Program-made: the position numbers and the translations under genes | Notes under the pieces: generated by a model | What the model was told of the DNA's origin: nothing | Databases searched by the model: none | The model's input: the letters and a program-made list of their open reading frames with translations, nothing else | Assembly: GCF_017349355.1 (NCBI RefSeq) | Contig: NZ_JAFMPM010000007.1 | Span: forward strand, 248,001 to 312,000 | Direction: 5' to 3' | From: Thiothrix fructosivorans | GTDB taxonomy: Bacteria > Pseudomonadota > Gammaproteobacteria > Thiotrichales > Thiotrichaceae | Length of the DNA: 64,000 bases | Shown here: piece after piece, positions 5,984 to 20,651 of the stretch | Layout of the letters: each line of letters begins with the position of its first letter | How positions within the stretch are numbered: position 1 is the stretch's first letter

Positions 5984-6010
5984 ATCCAAAGCGCTTTGGA
6001 TTTTTAACAA
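5984..6010 (-). promoter_or_regulatory. thu operon promoter with LacI-type operator in its spacer
   Basis: A perfect 18-base palindrome ATCCAAAGCGCTTTGGAT spans 5984-6001. On the minus strand a -35-like TTGTTA (6010-6005) and a -10-like GGATAA (5987-5982) are exactly 17 bases apart, so the palindrome fills the spacer. The central CG and symmetric arms match operators of LacI-family sugar repressors. No LacI-family gene lies in the window, so the regulator must be elsewhere. Confidence 0.8.
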
Positions 6011-16415: not shown

Positions 16416-17402
16416 TTAAAAACCGTAGTTAAAACGCACACGCACGGCATTCACCGATTCGTCTTTCGCAACGTTGCTGGCACGCGATGCATTCGCGGCG
16501 AACGTCACGGATGCATCTTTGCTGCCAAACACAGGGACAGTATACGTCGCGTAAACAGTGTTCACTTTAGGTTTGGTAGCTGAACCGTTATCCGTGGTGG
16601 AATTGACCAAGCCTGCACCGAAAGGGCCACGCTGCATGTTCAGACCCAACGAGGTAACATCCACATCGGCTTTGCCAGTGGCTTTTTCACTCAACGAAGC
16701 AACACTGGCATTCACATTGGTTGCACCCAGCTTAACCCCTGCACCAACGCCCACGCCGGATTGTTTCAGTTCAGTGCCATCGGTAGCTTTGTCTTTGACG
16801 GTTTCAAAACCGGCGTGCAGCGTAGTGTTACCCATGTTGTAAGACACCGCCGGACGCAATGCCGTAAAGCTATCGCTATCGGCTTTGCCGTTCATCACGC
16901 CAAGTTCCAGCTTGAGTTTATCGGAAGGGTTGGAATGCAGTGCGACGTGCAGCACATCATCTTTACGACCACGTGCTTTATTGGCTTCGTAGACTTTAGC
17001 TTCACCCGCACCGGCATGGCTCACGATAGTATCTTTACCCAGCGGAAACAGGTTGGCTGCTTCAAAGCGACCGATTTGTACATCCCACTTGTCGCGACCC
17101 ATTTGCAGGAATACGTCGTCGTAACCCAAGCTGCTACCTTTGAATGGCACGAGCGGTTGGGCAACGCCTTTAATGAAGTAGTTGTCACCTTTGGTTTCAC
17201 CCACGGCGTTGAGCTTAATACGACCGCCATGCGTGAAATTATTGCCTGCGTCACCGCCATCGTCAGCCGTGATGTCCAATTCCACATCACCACCGAAGGT
17301 GAACGTTTTGGGGGAAGCTGCTGCATCTGCCGCCATTGCGCCAACACTCAGGGACAGCATAGCAATGCCGCTAATCACACTTAACCGAATACTCATTTTC
17401 AT
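16416..17402 (-). CDS. Outer-membrane porin, probably sugar-selective
   Basis: A 328-residue protein with a signal peptide (MKMSIRLSVISGIAMLSLSV, cleavage near AMA-AD) and alternating beta-strand pattern throughout. The final residues VNAVRVRFNYGF, ending in phenylalanine, are the classic outer-membrane barrel targeting signal. Location between the fructose importer and fructokinase suggests it admits sugar through the outer membrane. No close named family is certain; it resembles general gammaproteobacterial porins. Two stable hairpins lie in its 5' leader. Confidence 0.82.
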   Translation of the reverse strand: MKMSIRLSVISGIAMLSLSVGAMAADAAASPKTFTFGGDVELDITADDGGDAGNNFTHGGRIKLNAVGETKGDNYFIKGVAQPLVPFKGSSLGYDDVFLQMGRDKWDVQIGRFEAANLFPLGKDTIVSHAGAGEAKVYEANKARGRKDDVLHVALHSNPSDKLKLELGVMNGKADSDSFTALRPAVSYNMGNTTLHAGFETVKDKATDGTELKQSGVGVGAGVKLGATNVNASVASLSEKATGKADVDVTSLGLNMQRGPFGAGLVNSTTDNGSATKPKVNTVYATYTVPVFGSKDASVTFAANASRASNVAKDESVNAVRVRFNYGF

Positions 17403-17430
17403 CGCACTTACCTACTGTGTTAATATAAGT

Positions 17431-17448
17431 GCGCTCATTGCTGAGCGC
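17431..17448 (-). repeat. GNRA-type hairpin in the porin leader
   Basis: On the transcribed strand GCGCTCA-GCAA-TGAGCGC forms a perfect 7-base stem closed by a GCAA tetraloop, 29 bases before the porin ATG. GNRA loops make unusually stable hairpins; likely an mRNA stability or ribosome-control element. Confidence 0.7.
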
Positions 17449-17455
17449 TAAGGGC

Positions 17456-17525
17456 GCAGTTCGCCTCGGTCAAGCTAGCGGGAGTACCAGTCCCAGTAGC
17501 TTGGTTCAACACCGGAGCGAACTGC
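17456..17525 (-). ncRNA. Long structured leader or processed RNA between frcA and the porin gene
   Basis: A 70-base element whose ends GCAGTTCGC and GCGAACTGC pair over 9 bases. Inside, CAAGCTA pairs with TAGCTTG over 7 bases and GGGA with TCCC at the top, with an imperfect helix between. On the minus strand no T-run follows. On the plus strand ATTTTTA follows, so an antisense terminator cannot be excluded. It resembles an intercistronic stability element or a small RNA precursor; function is inferred. Confidence 0.5.
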
Positions 17526-17563
17526 CATTTTTACGAAAACTTCAAAATTTCATCACCTGACGG

Positions 17564-18382
17564 TTACATTGCCCCTGCGGGTAATGCGTATGCCCCTGCT
17601 GGGTGATCATTCGGATCCATTGCCCCCGTCATGATCGCCACCCCTTCCGACATGGTGTGTGTCGACGGCTTGATCACGGCATGGCGTTTGCCCAAACGGT
17701 GTACATGGATACGATCCGCCACTTCCCACACATGCGGCATATTGTGACTAATCAGCACCACTGGCATTCCCCGATTACGCACATCCTTGATTAAATCCAA
17801 AACACGGCGGGATTCCTTCACCCCCAAAGCAGCCGTTGGTTCATCCATAATGACAACCTTGCTGCCAAACGCGGCGGCACGCGCTACCGCGACCGCTTGA
17901 CGTTGCCCACCCGACAGGGTTTCCACCGCTTGGTTGATCGACTGAATCGTGAGCAAACCCAGCTCGGACAATTTGTCGCGGGCAATTTGCTCCATTTTCT
18001 GATGATCTAACATGCGCAACCACTTACCGAGAAAGCCGGGTTTCAAGAGTTCACGCCCTAGAAACAGGTTGTCAGCAATGTTTAACGAGGGGGAAACCGC
18101 TAGGTTTTGGTAAACGGTTTCAATACCGGCAAGACGACCTTCCATTGGATTTTTGAAATTCACCAATGCGCCTGCCAGATACACATCACCAATGTCGGGT
18201 GGTGCTGCACCTGTGAGGGCTTTGATCAGGGAGGATTTGCCTGCGCCGTTGTCGCCGATGACCGCCAGCACTTCACCGGGGTAGAGGTCGAAATCGGAGT
18301 GATCCAGTGCGGTGACACGCCCGTAGCGTTTCACCATATTGCGACCTTTGAGGATGGGTTCGAGTTTGGTAACAGCATTCAT
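17564..18382 (-). CDS. frcA: Fructose-type ABC importer ATP-binding subunit
   Basis: ATPase of a ribose/fructose-class (CUT2) importer, about 272 residues. This is a single nucleotide-binding domain, unlike the doubled RbsA. The ATG at 18382 follows AGGAGGG; the longer frame upstream is inside the permease gene. Walker A is GDNGAGKSSLIKALTG, signature LSGGQRQAVAVARAAAF, Walker B VVIMDEPTAALGVKE, and H-loop VLISHNMPHVWE. It starts two bases after the frcC stop. Fructose is inferred from resemblance to FrcA and from the downstream fructokinase. Confidence 0.87.
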   Translation of the reverse strand: MNAVTKLEPILKGRNMVKRYGRVTALDHSDFDLYPGEVLAVIGDNGAGKSSLIKALTGAAPPDIGDVYLAGALVNFKNPMEGRLAGIETVYQNLAVSPSLNIADNLFLGRELLKPGFLGKWLRMLDHQKMEQIARDKLSELGLLTIQSINQAVETLSGGQRQAVAVARAAAFGSKVVIMDEPTAALGVKESRRVLDLIKDVRNRGMPVVLISHNMPHVWEVADRIHVHRLGKRHAVIKPSTHTMSEGVAIMTGAMDPNDHPAGAYALPAGAM

Positions 18383-18384
18383 GA

Positions 18385-19437
18385 TTACGCCCTCCTGATC
18401 CATTGGTCGACAGCAACGGCTACGATAATCAGCAAGCCAATCGAGAACTCTTGCCACAACACATCGACCCCCGCTAATGCCAGACCGTTACGGAAAACGC
18501 CGACCACCAGCGCACCAATCAACGTACCGACAATCGCCCCACGCCCACCAAACAAGCTCGTGCCACCGATAACCACCGCAGTAATGCTGTCGAGGTTGGC
18601 GGATTGCCCTGCTTGTGGGCTAACTGAGCCGATACGTCCGATCAATGTCCATGCCGCAAAGGCACAGATAACCCCAGCGACGATGTAGACGGATAGCAAC
18701 ACCTTTTCGGTATTAATCCCCGCCAACTGCGCCGCTTGCGGATCATCACCAGTTGCGTAGACATGCCGACCCCACGGAGTATGATTCAGCGCGTACCACA
18801 TCCCCGCAAACAGCGCGAGCAAACTCAATGTGCCCGTGGTGAAACGTGCGCCCAAAAATTCAAACGAAATGCCCATGAATTGCAGCAACGGAGCTTGCGC
18901 GGCAATATCTTGTGAACGAATGGTTTCACTTTCGGAATACCACAGATTCAGCGCGAAAAAGATGCTCCACGTCCCTAACGTCGTAATGAACGGTGGTAAA
19001 CGCAGGCGGGTAATCAGAAAACCATTGATTGCGCCACACACCGCCCCCGCCAATAAACCGAGCATTAACGCCAGTTCCGCCGGAAGCCCCAGCGTAATCG
19101 CGGTGCGCCCCATGACCACGGAACACAGCACCATGATCGCCCCAACAGACAAGTCGATACCGGCGGTTAAAATCACGAGGGTTTGTGCCACACCGATCAT
19201 GCCGATGATGGTGACTTGCTGGAATACCAGCGATAGATTAAACGGGTCTAGAAATTTACCGCCGATAATGGCGTAAAAGAAGGCGACTGCCATCAGCAAC
19301 ACAAATGCTGGGGCAGCAGTCGGGTAATTGTGTAAAAAGCGTTGGGTACGTTCACCCAAGCTCACATTTTCAGGCTCAAAGGAAGCAACACTTCCCCCCG
19401 CGCTCGCAGCAACGGCTTCAAAATTGTCTGTGGCCAT
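18385..19437 (-). CDS. frcC: Fructose-type ABC importer permease
   Basis: CUT2-class inner-membrane permease, 350 residues with eight to ten hydrophobic segments. FQQVTIIGMIGVAQTLVILT followed by AGIDLSVGAIMVL is the family signature, and LDSITAVVIGGTSLFGGRGA near residue 285 is the BPD-type conserved motif. The N-terminal 35 residues are hydrophilic and cytoplasmic. It lies downstream of frcB with a hairpin in the 96-base gap and two bases before frcA. Confidence 0.88.
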   Translation of the reverse strand: MATDNFEAVAASAGGSVASFEPENVSLGERTQRFLHNYPTAAPAFVLLMAVAFFYAIIGGKFLDPFNLSLVFQQVTIIGMIGVAQTLVILTAGIDLSVGAIMVLCSVVMGRTAITLGLPAELALMLGLLAGAVCGAINGFLITRLRLPPFITTLGTWSIFFALNLWYSESETIRSQDIAAQAPLLQFMGISFEFLGARFTTGTLSLLALFAGMWYALNHTPWGRHVYATGDDPQAAQLAGINTEKVLLSVYIVAGVICAFAAWTLIGRIGSVSPQAGQSANLDSITAVVIGGTSLFGGRGAIVGTLIGALVVGVFRNGLALAGVDVLWQEFSIGLLIIVAVAVDQWIRRA

Positions 19438-19475
19438 GTCAGTCTCTCCTTCTCACAAAGCCCAGCCTATGTAAC

Positions 19476-19503
19476 GGTGTCTGAGGTTGCGCCACCAGAC
19501 ACC
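19476..19503 (-). repeat. Intercistronic hairpin after the frc binding-protein gene
   Basis: A perfect 8-base stem GGTGTCTG / CAGACACC with a 12-base loop lies between frcB and frcC. An alternative pairing CTGAGG / CCTCAG overlaps it. No T-run follows. Third example of the same arrangement in the island. Confidence 0.68.
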
Positions 19504-19533
19504 ACTCGACCTCAGCAACTCAATGTGTGCGGA

Positions 19534-20553
19534 TTAACCCCAGCACTTTTTCAGACCGTCTTCGGATTTGATCGATTCAATACCGTCAGCAGGCTTATCC
19601 GTGATCAGCTCAACACCGGTATTGAAGAAATCCAGCCCTTCACTGTTAGCAGGCTTTTTGCCTGATTTGGCAAACTCAGCAATCGCCTCGATACCTTTGG
19701 AAGCCATCAGCAGCGGGAACTGCATGGAGGTTGCGCCGATGACGCTGTCCTTAACGTTTTTCACGCCAGGGCAACCACCGTCAACGGATACGATCAGCAC
19801 GTCTTTTTCTTTACCTGCGGCTTTCAAGGCTTCATACGCACCTGCTGCCGCCGGTTCATTGATGGTGTACACGACGTTGACACCTGCATCTTTTTGCAGC
19901 AGGTTTTCCATCGCTTTGCGACCACCCTCTTCCGAGCCTTGAGTCACATCATTGCCCACAATGCGCTTATCGTCTTCGTCACCCATTTTCTTGGCATCTT
20001 TCAGGTCAATACCGAAACCTTTCAGGAAGCCTTGGTCACGCGCTACGTCAACCGAGATTTGGTTAGCATTCAAATCCAGCAGGGCAATTTTGGCGTCTTT
20101 GGCTTTGTCGCCCAGTGACTTGGCTGCCCACTGCCCAATCAGCTCACCCGCTTTGAAGTTGTCCGTCGCGAATGTTGCATCCGCTGCACTGGCAGGGTCT
20201 AACGGCGTATCCAATGCAATGACCAGCAAGCCCGCTTTACGCGCTTTTTCAATCGCTGGGACAATCGCTTTGGAATCGCTAGGGGTGATCATGATGCCTT
20301 TTGCACCCGCAGAGATCAGATTTTCAACTGCTTGTACTTGGGAGTCGTTGTCACCATCCACTTTACCGGCGAAACTGCGTAATTCGATGCCCATTTCCTT
20401 GGCTTTCGCTGCCGCGCCTTCCTTCATCTTCACGAAAAACGGGTTGGTGTTGGTTTTGGTAATCAGACCAACAATCATGTCTTCTGCGTGTACCGCAGCA
20501 GGCAACATGAAGCTAGCAGTCAACGCCAAAACCATCGCACTTTTCTTGAACAT
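19534..20553 (-). CDS. frcB: Fructose-type ABC importer substrate-binding protein
   Basis: Periplasmic CUT2-class binding protein (periplasmic binding protein fold type I), 339 residues. The ATG at 20553 has GGAGGAATG upstream. Signal peptide [20 protein letters not shown], cleavage near VHA-ED. Typical features are [49 protein letters not shown], and [18 protein letters not shown], the last strongly FrcB-like. It is the first gene of a long operon reaching eda and is served by a near-consensus promoter. Ligand likely fructose, possibly also ribose or mannose. Confidence 0.88.
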
Positions 20554-20651
20554 CTTACATTCCTCCACCACTCGACATATTAAATTTACCTGCGACTAAA
20601 CAAACGCTTACTGGCTTGTTGGGTCGCGGCATCTCTCTTCCTATTCACAAA

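Follow-up and report, generated by a model that had tools for sequence, protein, structure and literature searches.

The window, a stretch of 64,000 nucleotides from Thiothrix fructosivorans, carries on its minus strand genes in the order frcB-frcC-frcA-[leader]-porin-pfkB-zwf-edd-eda-like gene, with a divergent gene encoding a ROK-family regulator beyond frcB. Resemblance and gene order are the basis of the names frc, zwf, edd and eda, and NCBIfam gave no more than sub-threshold matches for the ABC proteins tested. The porin leader and the genes on either side of it comprise the following features:

16416..17402, minus strand: porin, with Porin_8 (RafY-like glycoporin) and Porin_4 domain matches
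17403..17410, minus strand: 3' arm of helix P3, UAAGUGCG, which forms the Shine-Dalgarno-AUG spacer (fold, alignment, accessibility)
17410..17414, minus strand: UAGGU as putative Shine-Dalgarno, 7 nt upstream of the AUG (sequence; invariant in four species)
17426..17433, minus strand: 5' arm of helix P3, CGCACUUA, the anti-ribosome-binding-site strand (fold; invariant in four species)
17431..17448, minus strand: P2, 7-bp hairpin with GNRA tetraloop, GCGCUCA-GCAA-UGAGCGC (fold, alignment)
17449..17455, minus strand: linker GCCCUUA, joining P1 to P2 (alignment)
17456..17525, minus strand: P1, 70-nt irregular hairpin (fold, column-shuffle z of -7.5, two-sided changes at four pairs)
17564..18379, minus strand: frcA-like sugar ABC ATPase upstream, present only in the window species (G000) and G009 and outside the conserved unit

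The structured element is real. Folding of the 95-nt element, as its plus strand, gave a minimum free energy of -49.4 kcal/mol compared with -32.0 +/- 3.3 kcal/mol for dinucleotide shuffles (z of -5.2, with none of 200 shuffles as stable), and the whole 161-nt stretch with flanks, folded as the porin strand, gave a z of -4.1, and here too none of the shuffles was as stable. The sequence-only reading had described a 70-base hairpin with 9-base closing arms followed by a second 7-base stem with a GNRA tetraloop ahead of the porin start, and both the coordinates and the arms are correct (17456-17525 and 17431-17448, minus strand). Its term 'multi-stem', however, overstated the architecture of P1, which is one unbranched irregular hairpin: the 9-bp closing arms GCAGUUCGC/GCGAACUGC belong to an outer stem of 9-10 bp, followed by a 4-bp CGG[U/C] stem, a 7-nt asymmetric bulge, a 7-bp upper stem and an apex of GGGA/UCCC closing the 7-nt loop CUGGUAC. 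Nor does the element end at 17431 as had been proposed, since a third helix, P3, absent from that reading and formed by 7-8 bp between 17426-17433 and 17403-17410, links it to the ribosome-binding site of the porin.

Regarding the strand, P1 folds about equally well on both and wobble changes do not discriminate between them (3 vs 2), while P2-P3 score better on the porin strand (z of -4.0 vs -2.5). The porin strand was assigned from position, operon direction, conservation running into the ribosome-binding site and AUG, and this P2-P3 difference. The near-palindromic nature of P1 and its equal folding on both strands could also be accounted for by an inverted repeat acting at the DNA level, as a protein operator, cruciform or mobile-element remnant, and not as RNA; this is improbable, however, as the element is present in a single genomic copy and in no plasmid or phage, the arms are broken by an asymmetric bulge of conserved size, and conservation continues unbroken through the linker, ribosome-binding site and AUG. 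A repeated or mobile palindrome (REP, MITE) was rejected, the genome itself having one full match and otherwise chance matches of 14-17 nt.

DNA searches of the genus detected homologues in three other genomes, with 85-92% identity, and in all four genomes carrying the element it adjoins the orthologous porin. A protein-profile search found this porin in exactly those four of the 16 genus genomes, and none of the porin-less genomes among these 16 has the element; the linkage to the porin is thus exclusive. A covariance-model search of relatives, which the sequence-only reading had suggested, was run with model R1 on 63 family and 369 class genomes and yielded the four Thiothrix loci, one chance-level match and nothing else, the class scan scoring 7 candidates per genome, so that weak relatives could be missed. 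The element is absent from the porins of the sister genus and from more distant porins of the family, and porin leaders of the sister genus (G019, G030, G077, G080) and of the more distant G024 have no significant structure (z of -0.2 to -1.5). Rfam 15 gave no match in the window at the gathering threshold and none at E <= 5 in 17380-17580, and no relative of the porin was found in viral contigs. As far as could be searched, the leader RNA therefore appears confined to the genus Thiothrix. In G017, one of the family genomes, at least two porin-like genes of this porin family stand in tandem (C67, 15190-17934; L045, L046, L049).

The position between frcA and the porin, as first described, holds in the window species but is incidental. 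FrcB was found only in G000 and G009, and frcBCA is absent from G011 (T. lacustris) and G015, in which the element still precedes the porin and the nearest gene of annotated size before the leader is miaB, with a gap of about 800 bp in G011. Because two of the four genomes thus lack frcBCA, the element is the porin's own 5' leader and not a 3' or intercistronic element of frcA. A processing or decoupling hairpin setting the relative mRNA levels of frcBCA and porin would suit G000 and G009, where the element lies between frcA and porin and where such hairpins can set stoichiometry, but its position with respect to the porin is unchanged in G011 and G015, and an intercistronic role carries a correspondingly small probability, its standing as the original function appearing largely refuted by gene order. 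In G000 and G009 the frcBCA cassette itself (window 17564-20571) separates miaB from the porin cluster; the other two genomes lack it, so that its gain or loss appears to have taken place directly at the promoter region of the porin.

Conservation of the leader greatly exceeds that of neutral sites. From the linker to the AUG 48 of 53 columns (91%) are invariant in the four species and in P1 50 of 70 (71%), compared with 14% of fourfold sites in the porin, 38% in pfkB, 43% in zwf and 42% in edd; upstream, conservation ends sharply, with 0-1 of 20 columns invariant at -159..-130. The porin coding sequences of G000 or G009 differ from those of the other genomes at 52-62% of fourfold sites, and recent shared transfer of porin and leader is therefore not the cause of this conservation. 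Between G000 and G009 fourfold identity is 40% in the porin (16416-17402) and 59-76% in its operon neighbours, which suggests that the porin may have undergone fast change or recombination beneath a constant leader.

Conservation of pairing was evident from the compensatory changes that the sequence-only reading had proposed as a check and that were found, four of 38 consensus pairs having changed on both sides in a comparison set of four sequences, two of which are close relatives. Across these 38 pairs and four species 98.7% of cells are paired, compared with 34-41% when partners are slid, and the RNAalifold energy of the four-species alignment has a z of -8.0 against column shuffles, none of 300 being as stable. 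In the upper stem of G000 three adjacent pairs differ together (C-G, U-A, A-U vs U-A, G-C, G-C) and may represent fewer than three independent events. The changes lie in P1; the P2 and P3 stems are invariant save for the last P3 position and provide no covariation for or against either helix. The P2 tetraloop is GCAA in the window species and GUAA in the other three, and the linker GCCCUUA is invariant across the four species except for a single G/A column next to P1.

An open reading frame starting at a conserved AUG at the base of P1 (17-26 codons) could in principle encode a leader peptide, as the AUG is present in all four species and 26 codons are open in three of them; such a peptide is highly improbable, however, since the G000 frame stops after codon 17, no Shine-Dalgarno precedes that AUG and variable columns are spread evenly over codon positions 1, 2 and 3 (7, 8 and 6). 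The reading frame was accordingly rejected, changes not being concentrated at third codon positions. An intrinsic terminator or attenuator was also rejected, the sequence after P2 being ACUUAUAUUA, or ACUUAUAGUA in two species, with no uninterrupted U run, and terminator-like matches were no more frequent than in shuffles.

Helix P3 overlaps the ribosome-binding site of the porin. Its 5' arm shares 3 nt with P2 (17431-17433), its 3' arm ends in a base that differs among species (G/A), and the 8-nt complement to the porin ribosome-binding region is the longest among the 48 ORFs of the window, in which set, with start codons picked mechanically, the porin has a predicted mean unpaired probability of 0.08 at -8..-1 vs a median of 0.45. 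In fold predictions a full-length P3 shortens the base of P2 by 2-3 bp: in longer context P3 folds fully and P2 is trimmed to 5 bp in three of the four species, and in the isolated segment the predictions rate a full 7-bp P2 plus a trimmed P3 as more stable than a full P3. Which of the two would be the default state thus differs with the folded context and is uncertain. The P3 3' arm is similar to the ribosome-binding region of sister-genus porins without the element, and its conservation may in part be an ancestral constraint on the ribosome-binding site. Similarity to the P3 5' arm is also seen in the linker GCCCUUA, for which weak pairing with early codons of the porin is predicted; a duplicated anti-ribosome-binding-site sequence in the linker (GCGCCCUUA vs GCGCACUUA) can pair only if a mismatch or bulge is allowed and is therefore not claimed.

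Taken as a whole, the leader is best explained, with a probability of roughly 65%, as a cis-acting structured element of the porin mRNA acting on translation and/or stability, and with four pairs changed on both sides the earlier suggestion of a riboregulator is supported insofar as it meant a structured RNA with a regulatory effect on the porin; no result speaks specifically for a processing site or for an independent small RNA. In this model the leader begins with the strong hairpin P1, which would form a folded domain together with P2, and P3 would pair the Shine-Dalgarno-AUG stretch with bases that P2 also needs, a full P2 weakening P3 and a full P3 trimming P2. We infer a change in porin expression as the likely consequence, in which folding of the leader would hold down or time porin translation, and the 5' hairpins P1 and P2 would in addition shield the porin message from decay. 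The predicted competition between P2 and P3 may be used as a switch, for which a sugar metabolite, a protein or a small RNA could be the trigger, or it may be a simple constitutive setting.

Overlapping helices of which one covers the Shine-Dalgarno-AUG region are a feature of leaders that sequester the ribosome-binding site and of translational riboswitch platforms. The predicted P2/P3 overlap of the Thiothrix leader, with one helix over that region and low accessibility of the ribosome-binding site, resembles such systems, but the leader has no identified aptamer or ligand, has a single hairpin on the sensor side, and is restricted to one gene and one genus with no Rfam match. A riboswitch-type sensor, in which P1 would bind a metabolite such as an Entner-Doudoroff sugar phosphate and P2/P3 would serve as the expression platform, could draw on the predicted overlap, the covered ribosome-binding site and the operon composition (porin-pfkB-zwf-edd-eda); P1, however, consists of one hairpin and has neither a junction nor an evident conserved pocket, its bulge is variable (GUUGAAC/AUAGGAG/AUUGGAG) and the element precedes no second gene in these genomes, and we regard such a sensor as unlikely. 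The wider proposal, a genus-restricted switch responsive to a ligand or protein that would couple sugar uptake by the porin to the Entner-Doudoroff pathway of its operon, is likewise given little weight.

Porin leaders are known targets of small RNAs, for example MicA on ompA, and the single-stranded UAUAUUAACACAGUAGG around the ribosome-binding site is almost invariant, so a leader that is paired by a trans-acting RNA or cleaved to release an RNA was also considered; it is unlikely, as there is no Rfam sRNA in the window and P2 is followed by no canonical terminator but by 5 T in 8 positions interrupted by A and G.

The 5' UTR of E. coli ompA contains mRNA-stabilising elements (PMC2777011, PMC7509114). 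Like the ompA leader, the Thiothrix element is a structured leader upstream of the ribosome-binding site of an outer-membrane protein gene; unlike it, it pairs the spacer of the ribosome-binding site in P3, and no Rfam or sequence relation between the two was found. Of the components of an ompA-type stabiliser Thiothrix has the hairpins and the porin, and for the 5' end of the transcript only promoter-like conservation upstream. A pure stabiliser, with P1 and P2 blocking RNase E entry as 5'-terminal hairpins, no switching and P3 incidental, overlaps the preferred reading, which allows for both effects, and is a serious possibility although short of even odds. The arrangement of a strong hairpin close to the presumed 5' end with the ribosome-binding site after it resembles the ompA plan, and an abundant outer-membrane protein would gain from protection of its mRNA, yet stabilisation needs little conservation of primary sequence and both the loop CUGGUAC and the block from linker through P2 to P3 are invariant or nearly so.

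Among intercistronic hairpins that process and stabilise operon mRNA, SRPS stem-loops are described at the 3' ends of genes (PMC4423207, PMC8219983). In the window species the Thiothrix element resembles these operon hairpins as a stable stem-loop between operon genes; relative to the SRPS hairpins as described there, it differs in being kept without the upstream operon gene and in being the 5' leader of the downstream gene. No Thiothrix paper that also mentions riboswitches was found in the literature library searched. It is well supported that the leader is a conserved and previously undescribed structured RNA of an ordinary cis-regulatory kind, whose function we infer. It has stayed nearly unchanged while the porin diverges fast and the neighbouring ABC-transporter operon comes or goes, and control of sugar porins by their leaders outside enteric bacteria becomes directly testable.

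Regarding transcription of the porin, the region upstream of P1 in G011 and G015 contains GCTTCAAAGCCCG...GGCAGTGTAA, which is comparable to GCTTCAAAGCGCTTTGGTAGTGTGTTTTAAT before the sister-genus porins and looks like an operator and -10 element. In the window species the 3' end of frcA stands in place of this promoter-like region, and the porin may therefore depend on transcription by read-through from frcB. At loci L052 and L053 a short ORF whose beginning resembles a signal peptide (MKFTRLFAAISGAILLASATLAHAATGL...), about 200-390 bp before the porin, is present in G015 and nearly so in G011, and stops shortly before the conserved promoter-like motif. Elsewhere in the window (5986-5999), a perfect palindrome, CCAAAGCGCTTTGG, with no second copy in the genome even when one mismatch is allowed, lies about 80 bp upstream of the start of the sugar-binding-protein gene of a second ABC transporter. 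The same palindrome (CAAAGCGCTTTG) is present ahead of the porin in the sister-genus genomes G019 and G077, which suggests that one shared sugar regulator with a LacI-like operator may act at CCAAAGCGCTTTGG and at the sister-genus porin sites.
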